Positions 1 to 46,417 of a stretch of DNA of 46,417 nucleotides are shown here, piece after piece; the first letter of the stretch is position 1; each line of letters opens with the position of its first letter. Origin of the DNA: a virus. The notes under the pieces were generated by a model, which ran no database searches, was not told where the DNA came from, and saw only the letters and a list, made by a program, of their open reading frames with translations. A program made the position numbers and the translations under genes. Location: IMG/VR virus record IMGVR_UViG_3300036760_000304, positions 1 through 46,417 of that record; one strand, written 5' to 3'.

Positions 1-234
1 GAAGCGCCCTTCGTCCTCGGGAACATCTACCTACGACTCGGCGGCGGAGCCTACTGGCAGAACTTCGACGACTGGAAGGCCGAGCTCGTGTCGGGCGTCG
101 GTGTCGCCTGCAAGTTCGGCATCTTCGATGGCAAGGCTGGCTACAACCGCATCCAGGCCGGCGGCAAGGGTGACCCGACGAACGCCTTCTATGCCGGCGT
201 CTCTGTGCTCGGGCCGGCGGGAGAGCGAAAATGA
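1..234 (+). CDS. small exported beta-rich protein, C-terminal part (5' end cut by window edge)
   Basis: Open from the first base to the TGA at 232-234. The first 112 bases are identical to 45878-45989, inside the full-length exported-protein gene at 45647. After that this copy continues differently (GVACKFGIFDGKAGYN), which looks like the native C-terminus: alternating hydrophobic and polar residues with aromatic girdles (NIYLRLGGGAYW, FYAGVSVLG), as in small outer-membrane beta-barrels. Its missing N-terminus is probably the fragment at 46299-46417, so the gene spans the contig ends with about 112 bases lacking. Function unknown. By position among late genes and by type it recalls the lambda Lom class of phage-encoded outer-membrane proteins, but that is inference. 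Confidence 0.75.
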   Translation, partial: EAPFVLGNIYLRLGGGAYWQNFDDWKAELVSGVGVACKFGIFDGKAGYNRIQAGGKGDPTNAFYAGVSVLGPAGERK

Positions 235-14155: not shown

Positions 14156-17100
14156 GTGGCAGACGAAACACTGTCTCTCGTTCTCCGCGTGTTGGGCGTG
14201 CAACAGGCGGCGCGGGATACGGAACAAGCCGCCGTCTCGATCGAGGGGCTGGGAGCCGCGGCTCTTGCGCAACAGGCCAGCATCGCGGGTCTGGATGCGA
14301 GCGTCCTCAAGCTCGGGACTGACCTCAAGCGGCTCGACGCCCCGGTCAAGGTTCCGTCCATCGTCATCCCGCCGGTCACGCTGCCGCCGATTGTCGTGCC
14401 GCCGGTTATCGTCGCGCCGACCGTGGATGCCGCAGGCTTCGAGGCTGCAAGGACAAGGATTCTCGGCGAACTCGGCCTTGATGTCTCCGTCCCGGTAACG
14501 CCGGCCGTTGATGTGGCCGGGCTGGAGGCCACCAAGGCAAGGATTCTCGGCGAACTCGGCCTTGATGTCTCCGTCCCGGTAACGCCGGCCGTTGATGTGG
14601 CCGGGCTGGAGGCCACCAAGGCAAGGATTCTCGGCGAACTCGGCCTTGGGCCGGTGGTCATCCCGGTCGCGCCGATCACGATCCCCCCCATCCCGGCGAT
14701 TCACGTCCCGCCCGTCGTCATCCCGCCGATCAAGGTGCCCCCGATTGTGGTGCCGCCACTGGCCGTCCAGCAGGCCGGTGCGCTCAAGTTGAGCGTGAGC
14801 CCGGTCGTCGACCAGGCGGCGCTCGACGCGGCACGGGCGAAGATCAAGTTCCTGGGTGCCGCCGTCCCACCGATCTTCATCCCGACCAAGCTCGACCCGA
14901 CCGCCGAGGCGCAGCTCAAGAGGCTCGGGGCGCAGGCCGCTGAGGTGAAGCTGCTGGCCGACGCCACGAGCGCCGCAGTCGCCAAGATCGGCAGCGGGCC
15001 GGTCGGGACTCAGAACGTCACGGCGCTACGGAACCAGATCGCAGCGCTCGAGGCGGCGGCCGAACCGACGCGCCTGCGGGGCCAGCTCAAGGCGTTGCAG
15101 GCCGAGCTCGGCGGTGTCGAGAGGGCTGCCGCTGGCATCTCCGGCGGGCAGCTCAAGGGGCTCTTCGGCGCGCTCGAGGGCGGCGCCGGGTCGCTCATCG
15201 GCAAGCTCGCGAGCCTGGGGTTCGTGGCCGGCGGTGTCGGGCTTGCCGTGGGCGCGCTGGTCCTGCCCTTCAAGCACATGGTGGACGAGGCCTCCGCCTC
15301 CGAGGATGCGATTCGCCGGTTCGACGTGGCGCTCGGGTCTCTCGGCCAGTTCTCGACCAAAGCCTCGGCCGATTTCCAGGCCTTCGCCTCGGCGCTGCAG
15401 GCGACGACGACGCAGTCGGACGAGGCGATTCTGGCGTCAGGCGCACTCCTCGCCCAGGTCGGTAGGCTGGGCGGCGCCGAGTTGAAGCGTGCCGTGCAGG
15501 GCGCCGTCGAATTGTCGGCCGTGCTGGGCGTGGACCTGCAGACCTCCACTCTTCAGCTCACCAAGGCCGCCGAGGGCAACGTCGAATCGCTACAACGGCT
15601 GGGCATCTCGATCGACGACAGCATCCCGAAGGGCGAGCGGCTGGCCGCAGTCCTGGCCAAGGTCGAGGCCAACCTCGGCGGATCGGCGGCGGCCCAGGCC
15701 GATACGCTGACCGGCGCCGTGGCGCGGCTCAAGAACCAGTGGTCTGACATGGCTGAGACGCTCGGCAAGCCGCTTATCGTGCCGCTCGCCGGCCTGTTTC
15801 AGGCGATCAACGCCTTCCTGCTGTTCAAGAACATCGCGGGCGGAGCGACTTCGGATGCGCGCCAGCAGGTCGATAAGCTCGCGGCCGACATGATCCGCCT
15901 CGGCGAATCGGGCCGCCCGCTTGCACGGCTCGGAGCGGATCTCAAGACCATTGAGCGGCTTCGCCTCCCGACGATCGAGCTGGCGTTCAAGAAGGGGAAT
16001 GCTGAGGAGATCCTGTCCGTCCTCGAAGCGATCCGCTCGAAGCGGCTGGAGGTTCAGGCCGAGCAGGTATTCCCAGCCATCGACACGGGCCCCCTCGATA
16101 GGCTGCTCGCCCAGGGCGAGAAGGCGCTCCGTGTCAGGGTCGAGTTCGAGAAGGGCACGATCGACGAGCAGATCAAGAGCCTGGAGACAGCGCTCCGACC
16201 CAGGGTCCTGCCGATCGCCTTCGAGTCCGACCTGAAGACGCTTGACGGCATTCTTCGGGGGATCGAGTCGCGCCGGGCCATCATTCCGGTCAGCGCCAAC
16301 GTTGAGGAGTTGCGCCGACAGGTCGATGCCGAGATCGCCCGCGGAGGGCTTGCGATTCATCTCCCCGTGCTGGCCGACCTGAAGGCCGACATCCCGCACG
16401 ATCTTGCCAAAACCCGGGAGCTGGCCTTTACGCTCCGCGCCACCGTCACGACCCAGGGACCACTGATCCCGACCGACCAGCTCGACAAGGAAGCCACCCA
16501 GGCCGCGGACATCTTCAAACAGCTCGCAAATGATACCTCGCAGGCAGGCGCGGTAGCTCGCGATGTCGTCGCCGGCATCTTGACCGAACTCACGAAGCTC
16601 CGTGGCAAGCGCTCCATCCTGGAGTTCGAGGCCCCCGCCCTCGGCCCGCTCCAGGATGCCATCGACAAGGTCGTGCTCCTACGCGCTGAGCTGGACCACA
16701 AGCCGCCGCCTCTTCTCCTCCACGCCGATGCCACGGACGTAACCCGCGCGGTCGCGCTCCTGGCCTCTGGATTCGGCACGCTCGTCTCGGGTGGCAAGGC
16801 TTCTGCAGAACAGTTGAGGGGTCAGTTCGACACGATCTCGGGCGCCATCGACGCGGCCGAGAAGGCGGTGCCGCAGCTCACGGGCCAGATGGAGGCGCTC
16901 CGGGCGAGTCTCGCCAAGCAGGCCGGCATCACGATGCCGGTGCGCTTAGACCTCGAAGCCGCCAAGCGCGACGGGCAGGCGCTCGCCCAGCTCGCGGTGA
17001 CGCTGTTTCAGGACATCGGCAAGAACCCCGTCGAGCTACTGACCTTCAAGGACCAGGCCGCGGCGGTCAAGGATGCGGCGGCCGGCGCCGCGCTCCTGCA

Positions 17101-18904
17101 GCAAGCCATGGAGGCGGCAGTCGCGAGCGGTGACGTCGAAAAGCAGGCCGCGGCTATCGGCCACATCGGAGACGCCTGGCGGGCCGCGCACGCGGACGCA
17201 TCGACCGCAGGATCCGCGCAGCGCGCCATCCTCGACGAAACGAAGCAGCGGGCCGACGCAGTGGCCTCCAGCCTCGGGGCGGTGTTTAAGGGCATCGAAG
17301 TCTCGAAGGCGCTGGACCTCCACATCCGCCTCCTCGATTTCGAGGCCGTCCGCGCCGACATCGAGGCCATCCACGAGCAGGTTCTCGGCTTCCAGCAACT
17401 CGGCGTCAAGGTCCCGGTCGAGCTGCAGCTCATCGACCAGGGAATCCCCGACAAGGTGCGCGACCTCTTCTCGAAGGCCACGGCCCCGATCCATGCGGAG
17501 CTCGAGGCGGGCGCCGTCACCAAGGCCGAAGCCGACTACGCCCGGCTGATAGACACGCTGCGGGCGCTCGGGATCCTCGAGCTTGTCCCCATGGTGGACC
17601 TGCGGAAGTTCGACAAGGACCTGAAAGAGGCCAGGGCGCGCGTGGCCACGGCCGGCGAGCAGGCGGCGGCGGCCTTCAACAAGAGCATGCAGGGCATCAC
17701 GCTCGACGCCGTGTCCGGTGGCTTCGCCGCTGCGCTCGGTGGGATCTTGGGCCAGGCCACGAGCTTCGGCGACGCCATGAAGAAGGTGTTTCAGACCTTC
17801 GTCGACGATGCGATCAAGCAGCTCGCGCGGTTGGCGGCTGCTCAGGCGCTATTCGCCATCGGCGGGCTTTTCAGTCCCGGGAGCTTTCTCAAGAAATTCT
17901 TCCAGGACGCGAGCGGCCTCCACTCGACGGCCGTCCTCCCGCCCGAGAACAAGCCGACCGCGACACCGCTGCCCGTCCCGCAGCTCAAGCCCATCGTCGC
18001 GCCGGTGCCTCTCAACGTCCCGATCCTGCCGAGCGTCACCGGCCCCATCGCCGTCAACCTCGCCTTCTCGACGCCCGACACGGTGACGCTGCCGGCGCCG
18101 CGCGCCAAGGTTCTGCCTTTCACGCCATTGAGCGTGCAGCCGTCGCTGAGACTCGCCGCCAGCATCGCGGCTCTCGTCGTGACGCCGCACCTTGCGCTTA
18201 AAGACGCCGCAGCCGTTCCCGTCGTCCCGAAGTTTCACGTGGAACAGGTTCGGCAGGCTCTCGTCGCCAAGAGCCCCGCCATCGAGCTATCGGGCGTGCC
18301 CGAGTCCATCGACATGGACGTGCCTCCGTTCGTGCTGCGTGGCGAGCCTGACGCGATGCGCCTGGCCGTCCCTGACTTCGTTCTCGACCGCAAGCCGCAA
18401 GTGCCGCGGCTCGTGGCTCCGCAGTTGGCTGCACCGGCCAAGGCCGGGCCGGAGTCCGCCTCGACCCGGGCGACGCTCCGTGTCCCGCCGGTGCAGCCTT
18501 CTATGTTCGAGACGGCGCCCTTGCAGGCGAGTCTTCAGCAAGCGTCTCGCGCCTTCGCCGCGACTCGTACGGGCCCGGCGCCGGGTAGCGGGAGACTTCC
18601 AGCCCTTCCGATCCTGCCCGGGCCGGGGCCGCTGCCGCTCCAACGCCGGGAAGAGGTGCCCGCGACTGCGGCCTTCCTTCGCGAGCAGATCGGCCGGGCG
18701 CGGGAAACGATCCGCAACCCAACCTTCGCATCGAACCTTCAGATCGAGCCGGGGTCGGATCTCATCAACCGCTTCTCGCCGCGCGGGCAGCTCTCCGGCG
18801 CCCAGCCGATCACGGTCATCACGCCCGACTCTCAGTCCATCGCTCAGAGCATCCGCCGCGGCGAACTCGGGCGACAGCTCCGCAAGCAGAGGGGGCGGTT
18901 CTGA
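14156..18904 (+). CDS. tape measure protein
   Basis: 1582 aa from GTG 14156; the longest gene, directly after the chaperone. N-terminal part has Pro/Val repeats (PPIVVPP type) and an exact tandem repeat at about residues 100-165. A hydrophobic segment at about 348-368 (ASLGFVAGGVGLAVGALVLP) precedes the conserved tape measure region (DEAILASGALLAQVG, LQRLGISIDDS, ADTLTGAVARLKNQWSDM). Long helical heptad-rich stretches follow, then a second hydrophobic Gly/Ala region at about 1180-1240 and a Pro/Val-rich C-terminus. The protein sets tail length and is expelled on DNA injection. By the known rule of about 1.5 angstroms per residue, the tail would be roughly 230-250 nm, an inference. Confidence 0.93.
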   Translation: MADETLSLVLRVLGVQQAARDTEQAAVSIEGLGAAALAQQASIAGLDASVLKLGTDLKRLDAPVKVPSIVIPPVTLPPIVVPPVIVAPTVDAAGFEAARTRILGELGLDVSVPVTPAVDVAGLEATKARILGELGLDVSVPVTPAVDVAGLEATKARILGELGLGPVVIPVAPITIPPIPAIHVPPVVIPPIKVPPIVVPPLAVQQAGALKLSVSPVVDQAALDAARAKIKFLGAAVPPIFIPTKLDPTAEAQLKRLGAQAAEVKLLADATSAAVAKIGSGPVGTQNVTALRNQIAALEAAAEPTRLRGQLKALQAELGGVERAAAGISGGQLKGLFGALEGGAGSLIGKLASLGFVAGGVGLAVGALVLPFKHMVDEASASEDAIRRFDVALGSLGQFSTKASADFQAFASALQATTTQSDEAILASGALLAQVGRLGGAELKRAVQGAVELSAVLGVDLQTSTLQLTKAAEGNVESLQRLGISIDDSIPKGERLAAVLAKVEANLGGSAAAQADTLTGAVARLKNQWSDMAETLGKPLIVPLAGLFQAINAFLLFKNIAGGATSDARQQVDKLAADMIRLGESGRPLARLGADLKTIERLRLPTIELAFKKGNAEEILSVLEAIRSKRLEVQAEQVFPAIDTGPLDRLLAQGEKALRVRVEFEKGTIDEQIKSLETALRPRVLPIAFESDLKTLDGILRGIESRRAIIPVSANVEELRRQVDAEIARGGLAIHLPVLADLKADIPHDLAKTRELAFTLRATVTTQGPLIPTDQLDKEATQAADIFKQLANDTSQAGAVARDVVAGILTELTKLRGKRSILEFEAPALGPLQDAIDKVVLLRAELDHKPPPLLLHADATDVTRAVALLASGFGTLVSGGKASAEQLRGQFDTISGAIDAAEKAVPQLTGQMEALRASLAKQAGITMPVRLDLEAAKRDGQALAQLAVTLFQDIGKNPVELLTFKDQAAAVKDAAAGAALLQQAMEAAVASGDVEKQAAAIGHIGDAWRAAHADASTAGSAQRAILDETKQRADAVASSLGAVFKGIEVSKALDLHIRLLDFEAVRADIEAIHEQVLGFQQLGVKVPVELQLIDQGIPDKVRDLFSKATAPIHAELEAGAVTKAEADYARLIDTLRALGILELVPMVDLRKFDKDLKEARARVATAGEQAAAAFNKSMQGITLDAVSGGFAAALGGILGQATSFGDAMKKVFQTFVDDAIKQLARLAAAQALFAIGGLFSPGSFLKKFFQDASGLHSTAVLPPENKPTATPLPVPQLKPIVAPVPLNVPILPSVTGPIAVNLAFSTPDTVTLPAPRAKVLPFTPLSVQPSLRLAASIAALVVTPHLALKDAAAVPVVPKFHVEQVRQALVAKSPAIELSGVPESIDMDVPPFVLRGEPDAMRLAVPDFVLDRKPQVPRLVAPQLAAPAKAGPESASTRATLRVPPVQPSMFETAPLQASLQQASRAFAATRTGPAPGSGRLPALPILPGPGPLPLQRREEVPATAAFLREQIGRARETIRNPTFASNLQIEPGSDLINRFSPRGQLSGAQPITVITPDSQSIAQSIRRGELGRQLRKQRGRF
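14455..14649 (+). repeat. 84-base exact tandem repeat, about 2.3 copies, in tape measure gene
   Basis: Units begin at 14455, 14539 and 14623 (AAGGATTCTCGGCGAACTCG). The two complete units are the same apart from bases at the first boundary, and the third is cut after about 27 bases. Each unit encodes 28 residues, ARILGELGLDVSVPV then TPAVDVAGLEATK, so the reading frame is kept. Near-perfect identity indicates a recent duplication. Confidence 0.9.
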
Positions 18905-31327: not shown

Positions 31328-32251
31328 ATGCGAACCGCTCTGCTCGAAACCTGCGAACCCGTCTGCTCCGCCGACGACCGTGAGGCCTGGCTCCGTGCCC
31401 GGCGCGGCGGCATCGGGGCGAGCGACGTCCCTGCGATCCTGGGCCTCGACCGCTACCGCGGCCCACTCCAGGTCTGGATGGAGAAGCTCGGCAAGGACTT
31501 CGAGGACGTGGCCGGCGAGGCCGCCGACTGGGGCCTGCGTCTCGAGCCCGTCGTCATCGCCGCCTACGCCGAGCGCAGCGGCCGGCAGGCCGAACGCTCG
31601 CGGATCCTCTACCGCTCCAAGGAGCACTGCTGGTCGCTCGCGACCCCCGACGGCTGGACCTGGGAAGACGGCTCTGCTCCCTGGCTCCTTCAAGCCAAGA
31701 CGACCTCCGCCTTCAGGGAGGCCGACTGGGCCGACGGCGTACCGCCCAAGACCTATGCGCAGGTCCAGGCCGAGATGCTGTGCCTCGGCTCCGAGCGCGA
31801 CACGGTCGCCTGTCTCATCGGTGGCCAGCGGCTCGTCTGGGCCGACGTGGAGCGCGACGAGCGGCTGATCTCCGAGATCATCGGCCGCTGTGGGGAGTTC
31901 TGGGGCTACGTCGAGACCGAGACGGTGCCGCCCGATGCATTGGGCGCGGGTGCGGCGAAGGCTCTCGGCTCGCTCTTCCCGAAGAGCAGCGACCGGCAGG
32001 TGAGGCTCGCGAACAGCTTCGAGGACAAGGCGTATCGGCTCCTGGACCTCAAGCGGCAGCGCGAGACCCTGGGCGGCGAGATCGAGGCCGTCGAGAACGA
32101 GGTCAAGGCCGCGATGGGCGATGCGGCCGAGGCGCTGCTCCCCGACGGCTCGCGGTTCACCTGGAAGAACAAGACGATCTCGGAGCACGTCCGCAAGGCG
32201 GTCACCTTCCGCGAGTTCCGGTTCTGGCCGGGTAAGGCGGTGTCGCGATGA
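31328..32251 (+). CDS. YqaJ-type (lambda exonuclease family) recombination nuclease
   Basis: 307 aa from ATG 31328, with CTGGAG upstream. Family marks: RARRGGIGASDVPAILG at 23-39, RLEP with Glu73, ATPDGW with Asp108, and YAQVQAEM at 143-150. In place of the usual acidic residue of the Asp, Glu-x-Lys triad it has LLQAKT (Gln122, Lys124). The enzyme degrades one strand of duplex ends to load the RecT-type protein encoded next. The C-terminal 60 residues are a coiled-coil (LLDLKRQRETLGGEIEAVEN). Stop overlaps the next ATG. Confidence 0.88.
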   Translation: MRTALLETCEPVCSADDREAWLRARRGGIGASDVPAILGLDRYRGPLQVWMEKLGKDFEDVAGEAADWGLRLEPVVIAAYAERSGRQAERSRILYRSKEHCWSLATPDGWTWEDGSAPWLLQAKTTSAFREADWADGVPPKTYAQVQAEMLCLGSERDTVACLIGGQRLVWADVERDERLISEIIGRCGEFWGYVETETVPPDALGAGAAKALGSLFPKSSDRQVRLANSFEDKAYRLLDLKRQRETLGGEIEAVENEVKAAMGDAAEALLPDGSRFTWKNKTISEHVRKAVTFREFRFWPGKAVSR

Positions 32252-33135
32252 CCCGCGTTAACACGGACGCCACGGGCCGCATCCAGCCCGCGAGCCAGAA
32301 GATCGAGACGCTGCCCGACGTGAACGGCGTCCTGGCCCGTCTCGGCCCTGCGATCGAGTCGTCCCTGCCCCGGCACCTGAATCCCGAGCGCATGGGGCGG
32401 CTCTTCCTGACGGCCGTCCGCCAGAACCCCAAGCTCTTGCAGTTGGAAGGGCTCTCGGATGAGGCGCGCCAGCACGTGACGCGGTCCTTCGCCGGCTGCG
32501 TCGTGTCGCTCTGCCAGATCGGGCTCGAGCCGAACACGCCGCTCGGCCACGCCTTCCTGATCCCGCGCAAGGACGGGAGGGCGAGCGCGAAGGAGAAGCG
32601 GGACGTCTACGTCGCGACGATGCTGATCGGCTATCCCGGCATGGTGGAGCTTGCGTGGCGGGCCGGCATCGACATCTCGGCCGAGGTGGTTCGACTGGGC
32701 GACGACTTCGACTACTGCTATGGGCTCGACCAGTTCTTGCGCCACAAGCCGTCGATGGAGCTGGGCCGCGAAGAGCAGCCGATGACGTTCGCGTATGCGA
32801 TCGCCCGGGCTCAGGACCGGCCTCCGAAGTTCAAGGTGATGAGCGCCGAGCAGATCGAGATGCGCAGAGCCGTGTCCGCCGCTCCGAACGGCATCGGCTG
32901 GGGCGACAACACGGAGGCGATGTACCGCAAGACGCCGGTGCGGGCGATCTGGCCGTTCATCGCGAAGAACCCCGAGATGGCGTTGGCGGCGAGGGTCGAG
33001 GAAATGGGGGAACGCGGGGAGTCGGCTGCACAGCTCCCCGAAGTGGGCGCCGCGTTGCGGAAGGTCGGGCTCGAGGGTCCACTGGAGAGCCACGAGCCCG
33101 GCCCCCGCATCGTCGACGCGGAGGAGGCGCCATGA
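32248..33135 (+). CDS. recT: RecT-family single-strand annealing protein
   Basis: 295 aa from ATG 32248. Family features: an N-terminal helical region, SFAGCVVSLCQIGLEPNTPLGHAF, MLIGYPGMVELAWRAG, and a YCYGLDQFLRHKP stretch. C-terminal part is acidic and variable. It binds single strands made by the exonuclease upstream and anneals them, supporting phage recombination and perhaps circularisation or concatemer formation. The pair is in one overlapping operon. Confidence 0.88.
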   Translation: MTRVNTDATGRIQPASQKIETLPDVNGVLARLGPAIESSLPRHLNPERMGRLFLTAVRQNPKLLQLEGLSDEARQHVTRSFAGCVVSLCQIGLEPNTPLGHAFLIPRKDGRASAKEKRDVYVATMLIGYPGMVELAWRAGIDISAEVVRLGDDFDYCYGLDQFLRHKPSMELGREEQPMTFAYAIARAQDRPPKFKVMSAEQIEMRRAVSAAPNGIGWGDNTEAMYRKTPVRAIWPFIAKNPEMALAARVEEMGERGESAAQLPEVGAALRKVGLEGPLESHEPGPRIVDAEEAP

Positions 33136-35171: not shown

Positions 35172-35500
35172 TGGCCACGAAGGACGCGATGGATAGGGCG
35201 AAGGAGTTTGTAGACGTATTTGGCGCCCCCATTCCGATGCTGAGCGTGGCGGCTGCCGCGAAGGCCATCGACGCGGCGGTGGCGGAGGCGCTAGAGGGCT
35301 CGACCATCCCGCGTCTCGCTGAGACCTGCGACGCCTGCGAAAAGAAGGGGGCGAATCTGGCGCGCCTAGAACTCTTGGCGCTGGTGCAGGAGGTCGAGGT
35401 GGAGCTCGATGCTGACGGTGACACGGCCTACGCGAACTTCGCTCGTGGCCTGTTCTCGGCCATGCGGCTCCGCTGCGAGGACGCGGGGTGCAAGCCATGA
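35171..35500 (+). CDS. hypothetical protein, 109 aa, with IDAAVAEAL motif
   Basis: ATG 35171 (or the GTG three bases earlier). N-terminal region has AKAIDAAVAEALEGS, shared with the gene at 39800 (AEAIDAAVAEALREA), so they are probably paralogous in part. A CDAC pair and a later Cys pair may bind metal. Function unknown. Confidence 0.62.
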   Translation: MATKDAMDRAKEFVDVFGAPIPMLSVAAAAKAIDAAVAEALEGSTIPRLAETCDACEKKGANLARLELLALVQEVEVELDADGDTAYANFARGLFSAMRLRCEDAGCKP

Positions 35501-36326: not shown

Positions 36327-37616
36327 GTGGTGGGGAAGGCTGCGGGTGGCGACTACTTCCTCTCCCGCTGGATGGGGACCCTCGGAACCGAGGCCACGTG
36401 CCTCGTGCTGGCGCTACGTCAGCTTGCAGACGAGCAGGGGATCATCCATGCCTCGCAGGCCGAGATCGCGGCGCTGACCGGTCTCTCTGAGCGAACGGTG
36501 CGGCGCTGGCTCGGCACCGCTGGCGTTGCGCGTTTCAGTGTCGAGGACGCGAGACGCCACGAGCTGCTGCATCGCCACTTCATCGCCGCCAAGTCGAGGC
36601 GCTACGCACCGCAGGCGCGCGGCGGCGCAAGTCGCATCGCGGACGAGATCCGCGTCGCACTCGACAACCCGACGCACCCCGGAGACATCCATACCGGCGA
36701 GATTCGCCGCAATGGAAACCGCGAGTGCAGTCAACTGGTTACGCAAGATGAGGCCGATGATGAGGCGGTCGTAACTGCGAGAAACGCCATTTCAGCCCTC
36801 TATACCGGCGAGGCTCGCCGCAATGGGGCCGAGAGAATCCCGGACGGCGCTGCCACCGAGTTCTATACCGGCGAGATTCGCCGCAATGGACCGCCCGTTA
36901 AGAGTCAACGAGTTGCGCAGATCGTGGCGCTGGAGCAACCGGAAGAACAGCCGTCAGAGGTCCATACCGGCGAAGCTCTCCGCAATGGCCATACCGGCGA
37001 GCCTCGCCGCGCTCAGAGTCCGGATCCGGATCTTCTCCGTTCCGTCTCCGAATCCGACTCCGGAAGGCATTTCAAAACACCGTTGTCCGGATCCGATCCG
37101 AAGAGCAGGCCCCATGCCGGAACCGGATCAACGTTTTTGAAAAGAGCTGGAACGGGCACGGACCTGATCTACGACCCGCGCCCGAAGCCCCCGACGCCAG
37201 TCGCTGATTCTGCCTCGAAGCAGGGGATGCTCTGGCGCGATCCGCGAGTCACCCGCCTCTCACAGAGGCAGATCGACGCCGCCAAGCTCTACGCCGACGA
37301 GATCGGCTGCTGGCTCGACGAGAAGAGCGGCAAGGAGCCCGCGGGGCTGCACTCGTACCGCAGGCTGCATCTCGCCGCGATCTTCTTCCTGGGAGCCAAG
37401 TACACGCGGGAGGCGCAGATGGCCGTGGACGATGACCTCGCCAACGCAAGGGCGGGCCGGCGGGCACCGATCGGCAACCCGTCGAGGTACTTCTGGGGCG
37501 TCTGCCGAGGGAAGGCCAAGGAGTACGGGATTGATCTCAAGGCGGACGACGGGCAGGCCGGTGTACGGGGTGGCCGGCGCCCGTCGGACCGCGCGGCGCT
37601 CGAGGGGGCGGGATGA
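36327..37616 (+). CDS. O-like replication initiator with internal origin repeats
   Basis: 429 aa from GTG 36327 (GTGGTG). Residues about 10-75 form an N-terminal winged-helix (TCLVLALRQLADEQG, ASQAEIAALTGLSERTVRRW) as in lambda-O-type and DnaD-like initiators. The middle, about 120-240, is linker-like and holds five copies of [HY]TGE-x-RRNG, encoded by 25-base DNA repeats. The C-terminal part (about 300-420) is a helical domain (LSQRQIDAAKLYADEIGCW, LHLAAIFFLGAKYT) that could contact a helicase. No helicase or loader gene was recognised. Binding the repeats would start replication, inferred from the lambda plan. Confidence 0.72.
   Translation: MVGKAAGGDYFLSRWMGTLGTEATCLVLALRQLADEQGIIHASQAEIAALTGLSERTVRRWLGTAGVARFSVEDARRHELLHRHFIAAKSRRYAPQARGGASRIADEIRVALDNPTHPGDIHTGEIRRNGNRECSQLVTQDEADDEAVVTARNAISALYTGEARRNGAERIPDGAATEFYTGEIRRNGPPVKSQRVAQIVALEQPEEQPSEVHTGEALRNGHTGEPRRAQSPDPDLLRSVSESDSGRHFKTPLSGSDPKSRPHAGTGSTFLKRAGTGTDLIYDPRPKPPTPVADSASKQGMLWRDPRVTRLSQRQIDAAKLYADEIGCWLDEKSGKEPAGLHSYRRLHLAAIFFLGAKYTREAQMAVDDDLANARAGRRAPIGNPSRYFWGVCRGKAKEYGIDLKADDGQAGVRGGRRPSDRAALEGAG
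36691..37015 (+). repeat. five iterons of 25 bases, putative replication origin
   Basis: Copies of ATACCGGCGAGATTCGCCGC plus AATGG start at 36691, 36802, 36865, 36964 and 36991. The first and third are identical; the second differs in the centre, the fourth in the right half, the fifth at its end. Each has a short internal dyad, GGCGA and TCGCC. Spacings are 111, 63, 99 and 27 bases. The repeats lie in the coding sequence of the replication protein, as lambda's O gene does. A relatively A/T-rich run (acgtttttgaaaag, about 37130-37145) follows. Confidence 0.7.
37018..37150 (+). other. stretch after the iterons: TCCGGATCCG repeats and A/T-rich run
   Basis: TCCGGATCCG-type elements recur near 37018 and 37085 with related TCCG words between, followed by the A/T-rich run near 37130-37145. 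In lambda-like origins such a run next to iterons is the melting site. Assignment is by analogy. Confidence 0.35.
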
Positions 37617-37885: not shown

Positions 37886-38311
37886 ATGAAGCCACGGCTG
37901 CTCGAGAAGCGCGATCGAGCGCAGGCTGAGGCCGTCTTTAAGGTCCTTGCCGCTGACGACTTCATGCTGTTGTCGAGTCGCAACAATGGCGAGTTCGAGC
38001 GAGTGGTCTGCGTGACTCATGCCACGGGGCCGTTGGAGAATCTTCTGAAGAAGTACCGGGCCTCGATGGCTCTTGCGCTTGCGAGGATGAGGAAGGTGCC
38101 AGCACCTGAATGCACCGACCGATATTGGGCGAGCGCCCACCTGGACGACGCCATCGCATTCGCCCTCGTTGTCTATACCGTTGGGCCGGACGGTGGCCTC
38201 TGTCGCAGGACCTATTCCCTGTGTGAGGGCGAAGCGCAGCAGCGTGACTTTGCCAGGGCGTTGCGCGACGAGGCCGACCGACTGGAACGTGGAGCAGGGA
38301 GATCTGAATGA
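37886..38311 (+). CDS. hypothetical protein, 141 aa
   Basis: ATG 37886 with AAGGTGAAG upstream. N-terminal basic helix, then strands and a helix (FERVVCVTHATGPLENLL, DDAIAFALVVYTVG) and a charged end. No family recognised. Stop overlaps the small terminase start. Confidence 0.62.
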   Translation: MKPRLLEKRDRAQAEAVFKVLAADDFMLLSSRNNGEFERVVCVTHATGPLENLLKKYRASMALALARMRKVPAPECTDRYWASAHLDDAIAFALVVYTVGPDGGLCRRTYSLCEGEAQQRDFARALRDEADRLERGAGRSE

Positions 38312-38928
38312 CGCCCAAGCGCCCCAAGAAGCCCGCCCTGACGCCACTGGGAGCCGCGATCATGCGGTCGAATATCAAGGTGGCCGCGAAGATGCGCCGG
38401 GAAGCGGAGGAGTCGAAGCCCGCCAAGCCCCGGAGCGTTCCGGCCGGTTCTGGAGATTCCGCCCTGGACGGCCTGCGCACCGCCCTCGTCGCTACCGGCG
38501 ACCTGCCGACCCGCCAGCGCCTCGTCCTCGCGGCGTGGGCCTCGGCACCGCCCGGCGAGAAGGTAGCCGAGTTCGCGCGTCGGGCCGGCATCGCGGAGTC
38601 GACCTGGTACGCCTGGCGAACCGACCCCGACTTCAGCGCCGAGCTCGAAAAGATCATCCGCCACCGCTGCCGCCTCAACCTGGAGTTCTTCGCCGAGCGG
38701 ATTGCCGAGGTGGACGCCGCGGTCTATCGGGGCGCCTTGGATCCCGAGAACACTGCGGCGGCCACTCTCGTCTACAAGCGCCTCGGCATCCTCCGCGAGC
38801 AGGTGGATCTCACGACGGAGAGGAAGGCGGAGGTGGAGCCGACGATCGAGGAACTCGAAGCACGCTTGGCGCAGCTCGCGAACGTGCTCGAAGCGGGCAC
38901 CAAGACCGAGGAGGAAAAGGGTCAATGA
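38308..38928 (+). CDS. terminase small subunit
   Basis: 206 aa from ATG 38308. Basic N-terminal 50 residues, then a homeodomain-like HTH (VAEFARRAGIAESTWYAWRT with DPDFSAELEKI) of the type found in small terminases, then an oligomerisation helix pair (LEARLAQLANVLEAG). It would recognise the packaging site and load the large subunit. Unusually, the large subunit gene is 3.7 kb downstream, with about a dozen small genes between. Confidence 0.75.
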   Translation: MTPKRPKKPALTPLGAAIMRSNIKVAAKMRREAEESKPAKPRSVPAGSGDSALDGLRTALVATGDLPTRQRLVLAAWASAPPGEKVAEFARRAGIAESTWYAWRTDPDFSAELEKIIRHRCRLNLEFFAERIAEVDAAVYRGALDPENTAAATLVYKRLGILREQVDLTTERKAEVEPTIEELEARLAQLANVLEAGTKTEEEKGQ

Positions 38929-39800
38929 CCGAAACGAAGTTCTACAAGGTCCTGGTCGACGGCAAGAGCGCACACGGCGGCACGATGGAATGGCCGCTGC
39001 CGAACGGCAAGCCGGGTGCGTGGGTCGAGGTCGATGGCCCGCTCGCGATGTGCGAGCGTGGGATTCACCTCACCTCGTCGCCATTCTCCTGGTACAAGCG
39101 CGGCTGCGCGATCTACGAAACCGAGCACGAGGGCCAGCACGGCGAAGTGAACGAGAACAAGATCTGCGTGCGTCGCGCGCGGCTCATGCGGCAAGTCGAG
39201 TTCCCAAAGCCGTGGCAGCGAGTCGAGACATTCCTCGACACGATCCCAGGCATCCAGTGGTTAAAGCCGGACGGTGAGCCGGAGGAAGCGTGGAGTCTGC
39301 ATCTTGCGCCAGCTTTGGCTGCGGCTTGGGATGCGGCTCGGGCTGCGGCTTGGGATGCGGCTCGGGCTGCGGCTCGGGCTGCGGCTTGGGATGCGGCTTG
39401 GGCTGCGGCTTGGGATGTGGCTCGGGCTGCGGCTTGGGATGCGGCTCGGGCTGCGGCTGGGGCTGCGGCTCGGGATGTGGCTCGGGCTGCGGCTTGGGAT
39501 GCGGCTTGGGATGCGGCTTGGGGTGCGGCTCGGGCTGCGGCTCGGGCTGCGGCTGGGGATGCGGCTCGGGGTGCGGCTCGGGCTGCGGCTGGGGATGCGG
39601 CTCGGGCTGCGGCTGGGGATGCGGCTCGGGCTGCGGCTGGGGATGCGGAACTCATGGCCATCGTTGAGCTCTGCCGCGACACCGACCTCGATCCGAAGCA
39701 CATCGCACACGCCGAGGCGCGGTGGCGGGTGTGGACCAAAGGCTATGGGCTCTACTGCGACGCGAACGGGAAGCTGTTCGTCTGTGGGGTGCAGACGTGA
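38925..39800 (+). CDS. protein with N-terminal conserved domain and long Ala-Trp-Asp/Arg repeat
   Basis: 291 aa from ATG 38925. N-terminal 110 residues form a domain (FYKVLVDGKSAHGGTMEWPL, LAMCERGIHLTS) known to me from other phages ahead of alanine-rich repeats (DUF7666-like, from memory). Residues 132-242 are a run of four-residue units such as AAAW, DAAR, DAAW. The last ~45 residues (VELCRDTDLDPKHIAHAEAR) are ordinary. The repeat could form a long helix with a Trp/Asp/Arg stripe. Function unknown. Confidence 0.75.
   Translation: MTETKFYKVLVDGKSAHGGTMEWPLPNGKPGAWVEVDGPLAMCERGIHLTSSPFSWYKRGCAIYETEHEGQHGEVNENKICVRRARLMRQVEFPKPWQRVETFLDTIPGIQWLKPDGEPEEAWSLHLAPALAAAWDAARAAAWDAARAAARAAAWDAAWAAAWDVARAAAWDAARAAAGAAARDVARAAAWDAAWDAAWGAARAAARAAAGDAARGAARAAAGDAARAAAGDAARAAAGDAELMAIVELCRDTDLDPKHIAHAEARWRVWTKGYGLYCDANGKLFVCGVQT
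39318..39650 (+). repeat. short-period coding repeat (GCGGCT TGGGAT type)
   Basis: About 330 bases of interlaced GCGGCTTGGGATGCGGCTCG-like units, period 12 with variants, all in frame. The codons alternate between GCG GCT, TGG/CGG/GGG and GAT/GCT. Unit number probably varies by slippage. Confidence 0.9.
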
Positions 39801-40165
39801 TGCCGAGCGAGAAGGCGGTGGAGAGGGCGCAAGCACTCTGGGATTCGTGGTGGGGACCGAATGTCCAGGAGATCAAAGAAGGCGCCGCGCAGATCGCCGA
39901 AGCCATCGACGCCGCGGTGGCGGAGGCACTGCGTGAGGCTCCGGCATTGACTGACTACCAACGACTTGCCCGCGAGCAGCCTGGCCTACTCTTGCAAGAG
40001 ACCGAGAAGCTAGCGCATGAAATGGGCGCCGCCGAGGAGCGCATGGCGATCCTTGCCTGGATTGGGCAGCACTCGTTTTCCGCAGGACATGGCGATCCAC
40101 CCACCGCCACCGCCGCAACGATGCGAGCCTGGATCGAATCCCGCGGGTCAGTGGAGGAGGGGTGA
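39800..40165 (+). CDS. hypothetical protein, 121 aa, with IDAAVAEAL motif
   Basis: ATG 39800 shares its A with the previous TGA. Contains IAEAIDAAVAEALREA near residue 36, the same motif as the protein at 35171, so they share a segment. Otherwise helical (LLQETEKLAHEMGAAEERMA). Function unknown. Confidence 0.62.
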   Translation: MPSEKAVERAQALWDSWWGPNVQEIKEGAAQIAEAIDAAVAEALREAPALTDYQRLAREQPGLLLQETEKLAHEMGAAEERMAILAWIGQHSFSAGHGDPPTATAATMRAWIESRGSVEEG

Positions 40166-40894: not shown

Positions 40895-41383
40895 ATGGCT
40901 TCTCGCGGTGCGAGGCCGTGCGACTGTTGCTGTCACGACGAGGCCGGGTGTCTCGAATACGACCAGATCCTTGAGCAGCGCCGGCTGCGGGCCGTTGAGC
41001 TACTCCGAGGGCTGATAAATGCCCCAGTCCTTGAGAATCCGGGTGCATGGCGCGCGTGGCGGGAAGCCTTCGAGCGAGACGCGATCCGGCTGCTTAAGTC
41101 TGAGACGGGGAAGCTGCGCCGCGAACACCGAAGCATCGTCGAGAAGTGGATCATCGCGCGGAAGAAGGCGGATAAGGTCGCTGCTTGGAGGAGAGCACAA
41201 CTCAAGTCCGGCAACTGTGTGGCCTGTGGGAAGAGGCGAGAGCACTATTCCCGCGAGTGCGATGCCTGCGCAATTAAGCACCGGTTGAGGACGCGCGCTG
41301 CTCGCGGGTCCCAGCCGTGGACCGGTAGAGGGCGAATGCCACTCATTCCGGATCCGCCAGGGCCGAGTGGCGATACCGCATGA
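40895..41383 (+). CDS. zinc-finger protein, 162 aa
   Basis: ATG 40895 with GAGGA at about 40883; a TTG at 40874 in frame, with GAGGAGG upstream, is equally possible. Contains CDCCCHDEAGC near the N-terminus and CVACGKRREHYSRECDAC near residue 110. The middle is helical and basic. Function unknown. Confidence 0.6.
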   Translation: MASRGARPCDCCCHDEAGCLEYDQILEQRRLRAVELLRGLINAPVLENPGAWRAWREAFERDAIRLLKSETGKLRREHRSIVEKWIIARKKADKVAAWRRAQLKSGNCVACGKRREHYSRECDACAIKHRLRTRAARGSQPWTGRGRMPLIPDPPGPSGDTA

Positions 41384-41424
41384 ACGGAGGCACATCCGCC
41401 ATGCCATCGAGCAGTGGCTGAAGC

Positions 41425-41595
41425 ATGCCGACCCCTGACCCCGGCTTCGACCGCGCCCGGTACGCGCGCGATCCTGATTATCGCGCCAAGATCCTAGAGT
41501 TCACCGACCTGCGCGAGGAGATCCAGGCGCGCGAGGTCTACGACCTGAGTCGTGGATTCAAGGAGGCGAACGAAGTGCCGGCGGTGAAGCCATGA
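41425..41595 (+). CDS. free-standing duplicate of the terminase large subunit N-terminus, 56 aa
   Basis: ATG 41425 to TGA 41593-41595, overlapping the next start. Its first 37 residues match TerL residues 1-37 in 33 positions (DPGFDRARYA, then AKILEFTDLREEIQARE), then diverge into VYDLSRGFKEANEVPAVKP. No Walker motif. The DNA is also nearly the same. No strong ribosome site. It may be a remnant of duplication or a made peptide that competes with TerL for a partner. Confidence 0.65.
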   Translation: MPTPDPGFDRARYARDPDYRAKILEFTDLREEIQAREVYDLSRGFKEANEVPAVKP

Positions 41596-41879
41596 CTGAC
41601 TACCTCTCCCCCGAGGACGTTAGGGGGGCCATTGAGGCGGCCAAAGTGGCCTGCATGGAGATCGCGAAGCATCTGCCCGAGGTGGACAGCGTGGCATATG
41701 CAGATGTGCAGGCGAACTACCGGGACAGGCTGGGCGAGCGCCTGCTGGAGATCCAAACCGAGTTCGTACGCGCGATCTCAGAACAGCGAGGCAAGCTACT
41801 GGCCGACATGGCGAATGGCGATGAGCCGATTCTACTGGTGCTGGAAGTCGCAGCCCTGATCGCGGCGGAGACGGCATGA
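41592..41879 (+). CDS. hypothetical helical protein, 95 aa
   Basis: ATG 41592 overlaps the terminase-fragment stop. Helical (VRGAIEAAKVACMEIAKHL, VRAISEQRGKLLADMANG). No family recognised. Stop overlaps the next ATG. Confidence 0.62.
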   Translation: MTDYLSPEDVRGAIEAAKVACMEIAKHLPEVDSVAYADVQANYRDRLGERLLEIQTEFVRAISEQRGKLLADMANGDEPILLVLEVAALIAAETA

Positions 41880-41989
41880 GGCGGCCTAAAGGAGCACACA
41901 CGCTGGCGGACCCACATGTGTCGATCATTGGCACTAACGGCAAGCGTGGCTGGTCCAAGGCGCTGAAAGAGACGGAGGGGGCAAAGTGA
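41876..41989 (+). CDS. small basic protein, 37 aa
   Basis: ATG 41876 overlaps the previous stop; its TGA overlaps the GTG of the next gene. Basic sequence with PHVSIIGTNGKRGW. Coupling on both sides supports it. Confidence 0.5.
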   Translation: MRRPKGAHTLADPHVSIIGTNGKRGWSKALKETEGAK

Positions 41990-42267
41990 GCGTCAAACTG
42001 CCTTCCGATAACTGGCGCCAGCCGGATCTTGACATCGGCCTCGGCCACTTGGTTTGGATTGGGACTGATCCATACGGCGAGCACGACGGTGAGCAGTTGT
42101 GGGTGGGTCACGGATTTGACAAGCCAGCGCCTTGTCTTGGGCATATCACGTTAGGTGGAACAGGCTGGACGCTCGTCAGCAAGGAGCCGCTAACGGTTAC
42201 GCCGAGCTTGGCCTGCGGATGTGGAGACCACGGCTTCATCACGAACGGGAAGTGGGTGTCAGCATGA
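41986..42267 (+). CDS. DUF6527-like protein, 93 aa
   Basis: GTG 41986 overlaps the previous stop; GGAGGGGG lies upstream. The C-terminus SLACGCGDHGFITNGKW resembles the DUF6527-type end seen in small phage proteins, recalled without a search. Cys and His there may bind zinc. Function unknown. Confidence 0.6.
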   Translation: MSVKLPSDNWRQPDLDIGLGHLVWIGTDPYGEHDGEQLWVGHGFDKPAPCLGHITLGGTGWTLVSKEPLTVTPSLACGCGDHGFITNGKWVSA

Positions 42268-42482
42268 GCGGAGCATCAAGTCGAATGTCGCCACAAGAAG
42301 AGATGGAGCTGATAGACAGGATGCGCAAGGCCGAATCCCGCCTGGCCGTTGCGGTGGAGGCGCTGAAGGCCATTGCAGAAGGATTCACGCCATTTCATTC
42401 TGGTGCTGAGCCTGGCGGGGGCAAGCACTGGATGATCCGTCTGGCCGAGAAGGCGCTGCGCGAGATCGAGGAGAAGAGATGA
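42264..42482 (+). CDS. hypothetical protein, 72 aa
   Basis: ATG 42264 overlaps the previous stop. A charged helix (MELIDRMRKAESRLAVAVEA) leads to a Gly-rich turn (GAEPGGGKHW) and a second helix. No family recognised. Stop overlaps the next ATG. Confidence 0.62.
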   Translation: MSGASSRMSPQEEMELIDRMRKAESRLAVAVEALKAIAEGFTPFHSGAEPGGGKHWMIRLAEKALREIEEKR

Positions 42483-42655
42483 GCGAAACAGAGGTCCTGG
42501 AATGGCAGCGCGATATGCGCCGAATCCGGCAGGCGCTTGAGAAGATCGCCGAGCACCTGGAGGCGAAGGATGCGCCGAGCGCGGCAGGGTCATGCGAATG
42601 CAGTAATTGCGGGCGGCCCACGTCCTGCCCAGCGTGCAGCAATGCCGCTCTCTGA
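42479..42655 (+). CDS. small coiled-coil plus zinc-knuckle protein, 58 aa
   Basis: ATG 42479 overlaps the previous stop. Helix of about 33 residues followed by CECSNCGRPTSCPACSN. It overlaps the terminase start by 14 bases and so is coupled to it. Confidence 0.62.
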   Translation: MSETEVLEWQRDMRRIRQALEKIAEHLEAKDAPSAAGSCECSNCGRPTSCPACSNAAL

Positions 42656-44261
42656 CCCCGGCTTCGACCGCGCCCGGTACGCGAAGGACCCGGCCTATCG
42701 CGCCAAGATCCTAGAGTTCACGGATCTCAGGGAGGAGATCCAGGCGCGCGAGGCCAGGACCGACATAAACAAGGCGATCAGCTACATCTTCGGCGTCAAG
42801 CAGTGGCCGTTCCATCGCAGGCTGCAGGGGTTCTTCGACGCGAACCAGCTCGCCACGGTGGACGCCCCCTGGGGACACGGCAAGTCCTTCCAGGTCTCCA
42901 TCGCCCGCAAGCTCTTCCAGCTCGGCGTGAACTGCAACGAGAACATCGGCATGGTCTCCAACGCCCCTGAACTCGCCGAGCAGTACGTGGACGTGATCCG
43001 AACGAACATCGAGTCGAACGAGCGCTGCCATAAGGTTTTCCCCCACCTTCGCATCGACAAGTTCGGCCGCAGCCGCGGCAACCTCCGGCTGACCGTCGAG
43101 CGCCCGCCGTCGAACCTGAAGGACCCGTCGATCGTGGCCATCGGCATTGAGGGCTCGATCCCGGGCCGCCGCTGGTCGATCCTCGACACCGACGACTTCC
43201 TGGACATCGACTCGACCTGGACCGAGCAGGCGCGGCGCAAGACGACGACCCGCTTCGATCAGGCCGTCCTCTCGCGCCTCGACCCGAACGGCCGGCACGA
43301 GGACGTGGGGACGCCCTTCAACCTGACCGACACGCGGCACGTCATTCGCGCCAAGCCGGGATACGCCTACGCCCGGTTCGACGGCGAGACGGGGACGATG
43401 CACGACAAGGCCGGCAAGCTCGTCGCGCAGATCGCGGTCGGCGGCCTTTGGCCTGAACTACACATCGACCCGATCTCCAAGAAGCAATCGGGCTGGCCGG
43501 CGTGGCGGATCGAGTGGGCGCGGCAGAATTTCAACCCCGAGGAGTTCGCCCGCTCGATCCGGTGCATCGCCCGCTCGGGGGCCATCGCCGCCTTCAAGAT
43601 CGAGGACCTGGAGTACGCCAAGGCGCTCGGCGTGCAGATGGGCCTCGGGCGGATGCCGATACCGGCGCGGCCCGGCGAGGCCGTCGTTACCGGCATCGAC
43701 CTCGCCATCTCCAAGAAGGACGTGGCCGACAGTACGGCAATGCACACGGGGACAGTCCGCGAGGGGCCCTACGGCCGCACCAAGGTCACGCTCGACGCTC
43801 GGTCGGGCCGCTGGGAACTCAAGGAGCGGCTGCGAGAGGTCCTGGACATTCTCCGCACCTACCCGGACCACGCCGGATTCAGGGTCGAGAACAATGCCGC
43901 ACAGGACGACTTCCTATCGATCCTCAACGACCATGACATGATCCGCAGCGTCGGCTTCGAGGACTCGGACCTGGACCGCATCCGCGTCATGCCGCATACC
44001 ACAACTGCGAAATATAAGCGCGACCCGACGATCGGCGTCCGTGGCATGTCGATCGACTTCGCGCAGAAGCGCTGGGCGCTCCCGTGCGGCGACGGGATGC
44101 GCGTCGAGAAGGAGATCCAGCTACTGCTGGACGGGCTCCTGTCCTTTGATCCTACGAGCCACACGAGCGACCAGGTCATCGCGGCCTGGCTCTTCAACGA
44201 GGCGACGCGGCACACCGGGCTCGCTGCGAGGGGTCCCTGGGAGGAGTTCGGCATCGCCTGA
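42642..44261 (+). CDS. terL: terminase large subunit
   Basis: 539 aa from ATG 42642; the longer frame from 42537 reads through an unrelated gene. ATPase: Walker A APWGHGKS (75-82), Walker B WSILDTDD (178-185), and GTPFNLTDTRH as the likely coupling motif. Nuclease: first acidic motif GIDLAISKKD (351-360) and later RVENNAAQDDF and SHTSDQVIAAWL. It cuts concatemers and drives DNA into the capsid through the portal. N-terminal 37 residues are duplicated at 41425. The small subunit is at 38308. Confidence 0.92.
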   Translation: MPLSDPGFDRARYAKDPAYRAKILEFTDLREEIQAREARTDINKAISYIFGVKQWPFHRRLQGFFDANQLATVDAPWGHGKSFQVSIARKLFQLGVNCNENIGMVSNAPELAEQYVDVIRTNIESNERCHKVFPHLRIDKFGRSRGNLRLTVERPPSNLKDPSIVAIGIEGSIPGRRWSILDTDDFLDIDSTWTEQARRKTTTRFDQAVLSRLDPNGRHEDVGTPFNLTDTRHVIRAKPGYAYARFDGETGTMHDKAGKLVAQIAVGGLWPELHIDPISKKQSGWPAWRIEWARQNFNPEEFARSIRCIARSGAIAAFKIEDLEYAKALGVQMGLGRMPIPARPGEAVVTGIDLAISKKDVADSTAMHTGTVREGPYGRTKVTLDARSGRWELKERLREVLDILRTYPDHAGFRVENNAAQDDFLSILNDHDMIRSVGFEDSDLDRIRVMPHTTTAKYKRDPTIGVRGMSIDFAQKRWALPCGDGMRVEKEIQLLLDGLLSFDPTSHTSDQVIAAWLFNEATRHTGLAARGPWEEFGIA

Positions 44262-45042: not shown

Positions 45043-45324
45043 ATGGCCGCGATCTACCTCCATGTGAGAGCCGGCGCCGTTCGCGGCTCGAAGAGCTACA
45101 CGGCCTGGGGCAGGCTGGAAGCGACCGCCCAGGACACCGCCGAGGCCTACTTCGCGGAGAAGCTCCAGCAGGTCGTGCCGCAGATGCCGCTTGGCCTCAC
45201 GGCGCGGGGCGAGTCGAAGTGGCTCTTGGAGACGCTGCGTAAGCTGAACACCGACTGCCGCGCCGTCGAGGTGCAAGCCTTCGGGAGCTGGTCGGCGGTC
45301 GCGGAGTACGAGGCAACCCCATGA
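45043..45324 (+). CDS. hypothetical protein, 93 aa
   Basis: ATG 45043 with TAGGAG upstream. Alpha/beta protein (AIYLHVRAGAVRGSKSYTAW, then AYFAEKLQQVVPQM). No family recognised. Stop overlaps the next start. Confidence 0.65.
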   Translation: MAAIYLHVRAGAVRGSKSYTAWGRLEATAQDTAEAYFAEKLQQVVPQMPLGLTARGESKWLLETLRKLNTDCRAVEVQAFGSWSAVAEYEATP

Positions 45325-45629
45325 GCGATTCGCGCGTGGACGTGCATCTGCACGATGACCGAGTGCACGACAAGCTGGACGAGATTCTATTTCTCGTCCG
45401 AGAGATCAATCGAAGGGAGAAGAAAATGGCACCCGAACTAGACCGGTTGGAAACTCAGGTAGCCGCGACCGATGGGGTCATCGACTCGGCCGTGGTGCTC
45501 TTGCAGGGCGTCAAGGCCAAGCTCGACGAGCTGGCGAGCGTGGACCCGCGGGTCGCGGCGCTGGCCGACGACCTGGGCATCAAGACGCAGGCGCTGGCTG
45601 AGGCCGTCGCCAACACTCCAACCCCGTAA
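45321..45629 (+). CDS. coiled-coil protein, 102 aa
   Basis: ATG 45321 overlaps the previous stop. Coiled-coil with LDEILFLVREINRREKK and TQVAATDGVIDSAVVLLQGV; ends QALAEAVANTPTP. That end, and its DNA, are closely echoed in the altered C-terminus of the next gene (QRLAAAVANTPPTP). Probably a small virion or adhesion-type helper; no family named. Confidence 0.68.
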   Translation: MSDSRVDVHLHDDRVHDKLDEILFLVREINRREKKMAPELDRLETQVAATDGVIDSAVVLLQGVKAKLDELASVDPRVAALADDLGIKTQALAEAVANTPTP

Positions 45630-45646: not shown

Positions 45647-45765
45647 GTGAAACTCGCCAAGCTCATAATCGCGCTGGCGCTTCTCGTCTGCGCCTTTCCC
45701 GTCCACGCCTCCGACGTCTCGCTGGGCGCCGGTGCGGCGTACTTCACGCAGAGCAAGGGTACGGT
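45647..45765 (+). repeat. 119-base direct repeat, copy of 46299-46417
   Basis: Identical to the last 119 bases of the window. It covers the start codon, signal peptide and first 39 codons of the exported protein. Confidence 0.95.
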
Positions 45766-46036
45766 GCCCTACATCGAGGGCGCGTACTCGTTCACGGCCC
45801 GCAAGTCAGCGTCCGTGACCTGGGCCCGAGACGATCAGACGAACCACGCCTTCGGGGCTCTCGACCTGAGAGTCGGTGAAGCGCCCTTCGTCCTCGGGAA
45901 CATCTACCTACGACTCGGCGGCGGAGCCTACTGGCAGAACTTCGACGACTGGAAGGCCGAGCTCGTGTCGGGCGTCGGTGTCGCCTGCACGCAGAGGCTG
46001 GCCGCGGCCGTCGCCAACACGCCGCCGACGCCGTAG
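45647..46036 (+). CDS. exported beta-rich protein, full N-terminus but altered C-terminus
   Basis: 129 aa from GTG 45647 with GGGAGG upstream. Signal peptide LAKLIIALALLVCAFPVHA, then SDVSLGAGAAYF; strands typical of small outer-membrane barrels. From 45990 the sequence stops matching the native C-terminus (see 1-234) and instead resembles the 3' end of the gene at 45321. The junction looks like an unequal exchange. This copy lacks the last third of the barrel and may be non-functional. Confidence 0.72.
   Translation: MKLAKLIIALALLVCAFPVHASDVSLGAGAAYFTQSKGTVPYIEGAYSFTARKSASVTWARDDQTNHAFGALDLRVGEAPFVLGNIYLRLGGGAYWQNFDDWKAELVSGVGVACTQRLAAAVANTPPTP
45878..45989 (+). repeat. 112-base direct repeat, copy of 1-112
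   Basis: Identical to the first 112 bases of the window. Together with the 119-base repeat it brackets 112 bases (45766-45877) that are absent from the split copy at the window ends. Confidence 0.95.
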
Positions 46037-46045
46037 GGAGGCGCC

Positions 46046-46294
46046 ATGTCCGAGAAGTGCCCCGCATGCGGGTATTGCCCGACGTGCGGGCGCCGGGGCT
46101 ACGAGATGGCCTGGCCGCCATTCCAACCCTACTACCCGCCCTACACGCCGTTCATCTCGACGACGGGGACGGGCGTCGTTCCGCTGACGGTCGGCGCCGG
46201 TGTGTTTCCGCTCACCGTCGGCCAGGGCGTGGCGCCGTTGACATTCGACCAGTTCACGCCCGAGCCACTTCCGTCCGCTTCTGGGAGGTATTGA
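46046..46294 (+). CDS. zinc-knuckle protein with PLT repeats, 82 aa
   Basis: ATG 46046 with GGGAGG upstream. CPACGYCPTCGRRGYE at the start, a Tyr/Pro-rich stretch (FQPYYPPYTPF), and three short repeats, VVPLTVG, VFPLTVG and VAPLTFD. No family recognised. Lies between two copies of the exported-protein gene. Confidence 0.62.
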   Translation: MSEKCPACGYCPTCGRRGYEMAWPPFQPYYPPYTPFISTTGTGVVPLTVGAGVFPLTVGQGVAPLTFDQFTPEPLPSASGRY

Positions 46295-46298
46295 AACC

Positions 46299-46417
46299 GT
46301 GAAACTCGCCAAGCTCATAATCGCGCTGGCGCTTCTCGTCTGCGCCTTTCCCGTCCACGCCTCCGACGTCTCGCTGGGCGCCGGTGCGGCGTACTTCACG
46401 CAGAGCAAGGGTACGGT
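46299..46417 (+). CDS. exported beta-rich protein, N-terminal part (3' end cut by window edge)
   Basis: GTG 46299 with GGGAGG upstream; 39 codons with the same signal peptide as 45647, open to the window end. Probably continues, after about 112 missing bases, into 1-234. A direct join of end to start would shift the frame, so the ends do not simply close. Confidence 0.75.
   Translation, partial: MKLAKLIIALALLVCAFPVHASDVSLGAGAAYFTQSKGT

Follow-up and report, generated by a model that had tools for sequence, protein, structure and literature searches.

The small open reading frame (ORF) at 41425-41595 of the analysed window, a 46,417-nucleotide stretch of viral DNA (positions 1 to 46,417 of IMG/VR record IMGVR_UViG_3300036760_000304), joins the 5' end of the gene for the terminase large subunit (TerL) to an unrelated tail. 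It is best explained as a chimera that arose when two related phage genomes recombined unequally, in an illegitimate or short-homology event, a reading to which a probability of roughly 0.6 can be assigned. The observed features behind this explanation are a direct repeat, the borders and frames of its two copies, a tail with coding character, a terL frame that is restored in silico, and a second case in the same genome. The features around the repeat are as follows.

41425-41595, plus strand: small chimeric ORF, TerL N-terminus (codons 1-37) and an unrelated 19-codon tail (ORF reading, copy comparison, coding score)
41425-41536, plus strand: direct repeat, upstream copy of the terL 5' end (87% to 42642-42753)
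42642-42753, plus strand: direct repeat, copy inside the real terL (self-comparison)
42642-44261, plus strand: terminase large subunit, 539 aa (PHROG, NCBIfam, structure profile, fold)
38308-38928, plus strand: terminase small subunit (TerS)-like ORF with HTH (phrog_2538, E=5e-6)

A sequence-only reading of this DNA had described a small intact gene upstream of terL that repeats 33 of the first 37 TerL residues, continues into a different tail, lacks an ATPase or nuclease part and is coupled to the next gene, and this description was borne out. The ORF encodes 56 amino acids, opens with ATG, closes with TGA and lies 1217 bp from terL, start to start. Over codons 1-37, 33 of 37 residues agree (the differing ones being 3, 4, 15 and 18), and 15 of 111 nucleotides differ. 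In the self-comparison of the window, the 112-bp repeat reaches 87% DNA identity with E=6e-32, so the likeness between terL and the small ORF is not a matter of chance. The terL-like DNA begins about 6 nt 5' of the small-ORF ATG and ends at codon 37, with none beyond that point. The stop codon shares the sequence ATGA with the start of the next gene. ATPase and nuclease domains are absent from the 56-residue product, in which the match to terL ends before the Walker A motif. The openness of the frame is uninformative at this divergence, since 8-15 random substitutions would leave a frame of such length open with a probability of about 0.56-0.73. A six-frame self-comparison by tblastx was noisy and was left out of the analysis.

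By its sequence, the product of 42642-44261 is a genuine TerL. It matches phrog_38 (E=4e-27) and, below threshold, a T7-type NCBIfam family, while a profile search of solved structures returns T7 gp19 and the PhiV-1 terminase, and its fold matches terminases too. Its best structural match, 8dgc, shows the PhiV-1 terminase in complex with the Avs3 defence protein, although the overall fit is loose (TM about 0.36). The AlphaFold model of TerL places helices at residues 10-15 and 17-38. In the alignment with distant relatives, the N-terminal 30-40 residues vary, and conservation starts at a motif matching ARTDIN, which in the window TerL directly follows the duplicated part. Judged by this model, what the small ORF copies is the helical unit at the TerL N-terminus, which is followed by the conserved ATPase core. 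Two relatives have a TerS-like gene directly 5' of terL; in the window, small genes spanning about 3.7 kb lie between the two. Directly downstream of terS, at 39228-39731, an array of 12-bp repeats encodes an Ala/Arg/Trp/Asp-rich stretch of the AAARDAAWDAA type.

The junctions on both sides of the copied segment, together with the DNA that separates the two repeats, contain the following elements.

41385-41438, plus strand: probable remnant gene end, RRHIRHAIEQWLKHADP and a stop codon, with no start codon seen in the open stretch (moderate, off-frame P 0.012)
41537-41595, plus strand: tail VYDLSRGFKEANEVPAVKP and a stop codon, probably from the 3' end of a different gene (codon score)
41537-42641, plus strand: DNA separating the two repeats, a 1105-bp cassette with small ORFs in series (41592, 41876, 41986, 42264, 42479)

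Nucleotide similarity to the intact gene ends abruptly, and the continuation has the coding character of a different gene, as in partial duplications. The sequence of the tail is YDLSRGFKEANEVPAVKP. In its own frame, its codon score falls at the 53rd percentile when ranked among real coding segments, a value reached by only 0.3% of open off-frame segments. Such a score resembles that of genuine coding sequence, and the 19 codons are therefore probably the 3' end of a different gene and not random read-through. Neither the rest of the window nor the phage collection contained a convincing match to the tail, and its parent gene was found neither with DNA patterns for the tail nor in the phage collection. 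Two other origins were considered for this segment. A frameshifted remainder of TerL was set aside on the lack of DNA similarity to terL, and the idea that the tail gene originally began in a 13-codon ORF at 41380 was abandoned when that frame scored as non-coding.

On the upstream side, the remnant, which is coding-like in character, overlaps the small ORF by 14 nt, and the ORF at 42479-42655 likewise overlaps terL by 14 nt. This is the anatomy expected if the left side consists of another phage's upstream gene and the start of its terL. The small ORFs of the cassette are mostly coupled by 4-nt overlaps, and the ORF under study forms one link of this chain. Crossovers made in silico between the repeats at three test points gave an open terL of 539 codons each time, with the 1.1-kb cassette removed. 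In other words, the repeats share a reading frame, so that excision of the cassette leaves terL intact.

A similar arrangement occurs at the ends of the contig, where another gene is involved.

45647-46036, plus strand: second truncated N-terminal copy, matching the gene starting at 46299 over 114 codons, with a tail resembling the end of 45321-45629
46299-46417, plus strand: first part of the complete gene to which the second truncated copy corresponds; the contig end interrupts it, and it resumes at 1-234
1-234, plus strand: continuation and end of that full-length gene (1-112 identical to 45878-45989)

As far as the sequence can tell, 45647-46036 has the same truncated-copy architecture as the small ORF. 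Similarity to the full gene begins 2 nt before its GTG start codon, the tail is a diverged copy (86%, DNA) of the end of the preceding gene at 45321-45629, and an extra gene at 46046-46294 stands between the truncated and the full-length copies. The second case shows 100% identity over its readable parts and sits at the contig ends, where an assembly effect is possible. The contig ends inside this second repeat, and about 112 bp would be missing between the ends if the molecule is circular, which makes the genome nearly complete. Additionally, a short stretch with 86-91% identity (AIDAAVAEAL), located at 35257-35292 and 39895-39930, is common to two accessory genes and is another sign of partial internal exchange.

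Repeats of other kinds are also present in the window. The linker of the HTH-containing protein encoded at 36327-37616 repeats, at 36688-36988, a TGEIRRNG-type motif (HTGEIRRNGN, YTGEIRRNGP, HTGEALRNGH), and tandem 84-bp in-frame repeats occur at 14415-14666, near the start of the 1582-aa ORF at 14156-18904.

The differences between the small ORF and terL are unevenly distributed. Changed codons fall into three patches (3-4, 15-18 and 27-30); run tests, chosen after the pattern had been seen, gave P=4e-4 for the grouping of 10 changed codons into no more than 3 runs and P=0.002 for the synonymous changes alone. This patchiness appears to fit mosaic exchange better than clock-like decay. The comparison of synonymous with nonsynonymous changes proposed in the sequence-only reading was carried out and gave a dN of 0.09 and a dS of 0.36 (NG86), values that cannot separate a decoy from a remnant, since a fragment derived from another functional terL also predicts a low dN/dS. 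Treated as independent substitutions, the differences include fewer amino-acid changes than a neutral copy would be expected to carry (P about 0.005). Three patches imply few independent events, which undermines this test against neutrality. The result, taken at face value, disfavours a neutral copy and speaks against a recombination relic, yet descent from a functional donor terL explains it too.

According to the proposed mechanism, the left parent would have contributed a gene ending in HADP and a stop codon, followed by the first 37 codons of its own terL, and the right parent a complete terL preceded by five small genes and, at the left edge, the final 19 codons of a different gene. The outcome would be one working terL and a 5' fragment of another terL allele, arranged head-to-tail as direct repeats flanking the 1.1-kb cassette. 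The phage encodes recombination functions of its own.

31328-32251, plus strand: YqaJ-type recombination exonuclease (E 7e-23)
32248-33135, plus strand: RecT-family single-strand annealing recombinase (E 3e-22)

During phage growth, recombinases of the RecT/Red-beta type recombine sequences with as little as 78% identity (PMC3945230), and the RecT/YqaJ system of this phage may likewise tolerate the 13% divergence seen here. A crossover between the repeats would then remove the cassette and leave an intact terL of 539 codons. The small ORF is probably translated through coupling with the adjacent genes, and its product may have no function or be of only slight use. We infer the parents, the event, the translation of the small ORF and its lack of an essential function. 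Comparable structures are the partial gene duplications and chimeric ORFs of mosaic phages with Rad52-like recombinases (PMC3945230), which share with this locus a mosaic junction beside an intact gene, a foreign tail, a border at the gene start, a phage RecT-type recombinase and a tolerated divergence of about 10-20%. The present case differs in that the fragment belongs to terL and flanks a removable cassette of small genes. Illegitimate recombination is considered much rarer in phages than homology-driven exchange (PMC3945230), which counts against this explanation.

A search of related phages for the same small gene, also proposed in the sequence-only reading, could be run but reached only distant loci. 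Peptide-pattern scans found no close relatives of TerL, the small ORF, the TerL fragment or the portal in viral contigs, and none of TerL in genome contigs. Searching with DNA patterns of the N-terminal motif and of the tail yielded no matches, and close relatives were also not found among phages or plasmids. A DNA pattern for Walker A recovered about 20 distant TerLs in viral contigs, to which profile searches added few, and 432 genomes from two phyla (Planctomycetota and Sumerlaeota) matched with TerLs only about 24-33% identical. The best identity of any TerL relative to the window TerL was about 25-36%. In about 30 distant TerL loci with usable flanks, no small ORF was seen near terL, at a TerL identity of only about 25-36%, which is too distant to be decisive. 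The parental arrangement, an intact donor gene with the tail, was not found for either parent genome in the viral or genome collections.

The sequence-only reading had offered two interpretations, a decoy or regulator of the interaction between the terminase subunits and a remnant of a tandem exchange; the latter is supported by the junction anatomy and the second truncated copy, whereas the former lacks specific support. A functional free-standing TerL N-terminal peptide, binding TerS through the TerL helix and thereby limiting or timing terminase assembly or hindering a competing phage or satellite, seems unlikely. Still less probable is the more particular proposal that the TerS-binding N-terminus was split off as a 56-residue peptide that competes with TerL for TerS, timing the start of packaging or blocking the packaging of competitors. 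The idea has a biochemical basis. In P22, as reviewed in PMC9611059, TerL needs no more than its residues 1-58 to bind the C-terminus of TerS, with the site in the first 23; by analogy, TerS binding by the N-terminus of the window TerL is plausible, as is a short N-terminal segment acting as a stand-alone binding element. In P22, however, the segment is part of TerL, and the passages cited describe no natural free copy. The small protein Rpp of PICI satellites, which binds TerS and controls packaging (PMC6739421), illustrates how a decoy would work by redirecting or blocking terminase, although Rpp is encoded by satellites and is not described as a TerL fragment. The copied stretch runs from the start codon to the point where the N-terminal helix finishes (residues 17-38 in AlphaFold), immediately ahead of the conserved core motif; in the model this boundary suggests a functional unit, a point that counts against a relic. 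The ORF is also intact, coupled and coding in character throughout, and the low dN relative to dS agrees with a maintained peptide. Against this stand the absence of the ORF near terL in the distant loci, the limits of which are given above, a tail that differs from TerL, and the low confidence of the predicted model of the isolated 56-residue protein (pLDDT 60). A decoy for the Avs defence, which binds terminases (8dgc), is unlikely by inference for a copy devoid of the ATPase and nuclease parts. The occurrence of the same truncated-copy pattern in a second, non-terminase gene means that no terminase-specific reason for the small ORF is needed, and it makes a recombination by-product more likely than a regulator.

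The DNA itself could be the relevant element, with the 112-bp direct repeats serving recombination or the initiation of packaging, for example by deleting or amplifying the cassette. Blocks of 32, 26 and about 21 nt are identical at synonymous sites, and the shared frame permits excision to an intact terL, yet these blocks all lie within codons that also encode identical residues, the fold of the repeats is not unusual (z -1.8 and -1.1), and no excised or amplified variant was seen. This role has only a slim chance. An RNA element was set aside because of the ordinary fold and the lack of an Rfam match. A parallel is provided by the T4 Hp17 mutants, in which, as far as the citing text in PMC9958956 relates (Wu, Wu and Black 1991), short homologies near the terminase genes are associated with gene 17 amplification. 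In both systems, DNA near terminase genes is flanked by direct homologies through which it can be rearranged, but in T4 the homologies are short and the link to recombination was shown genetically, while here the repeat is the terL 5' end and no rearranged variant was seen. The least probable reading is that two strain variants of one phage were joined during assembly. The record is an IMG/VR virus contig, taken as metagenomic, and its ends lie in the second, 100% identical repeat, where the assembler did meet repeats. The terL copies, by contrast, differ by 13%, the join leads into real coding sequence that continues in an ATGA-coupled operon, and self-comparison reveals no second place matching across 41536/41537 that could have misled an assembler.

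Should the peptide bind TerS, the phage would possess a naturally occurring dominant regulator of its packaging motor. If the small ORF is instead a recombination relic, as is preferred here, the locus would be a clear snapshot of how phages insert gene cassettes beside essential genes. The essential gene would stay whole, and a copy of its 5' end would persist as a direct repeat, through which the cassette could also be removed. The same genome seems to show this truncated-copy pattern twice.
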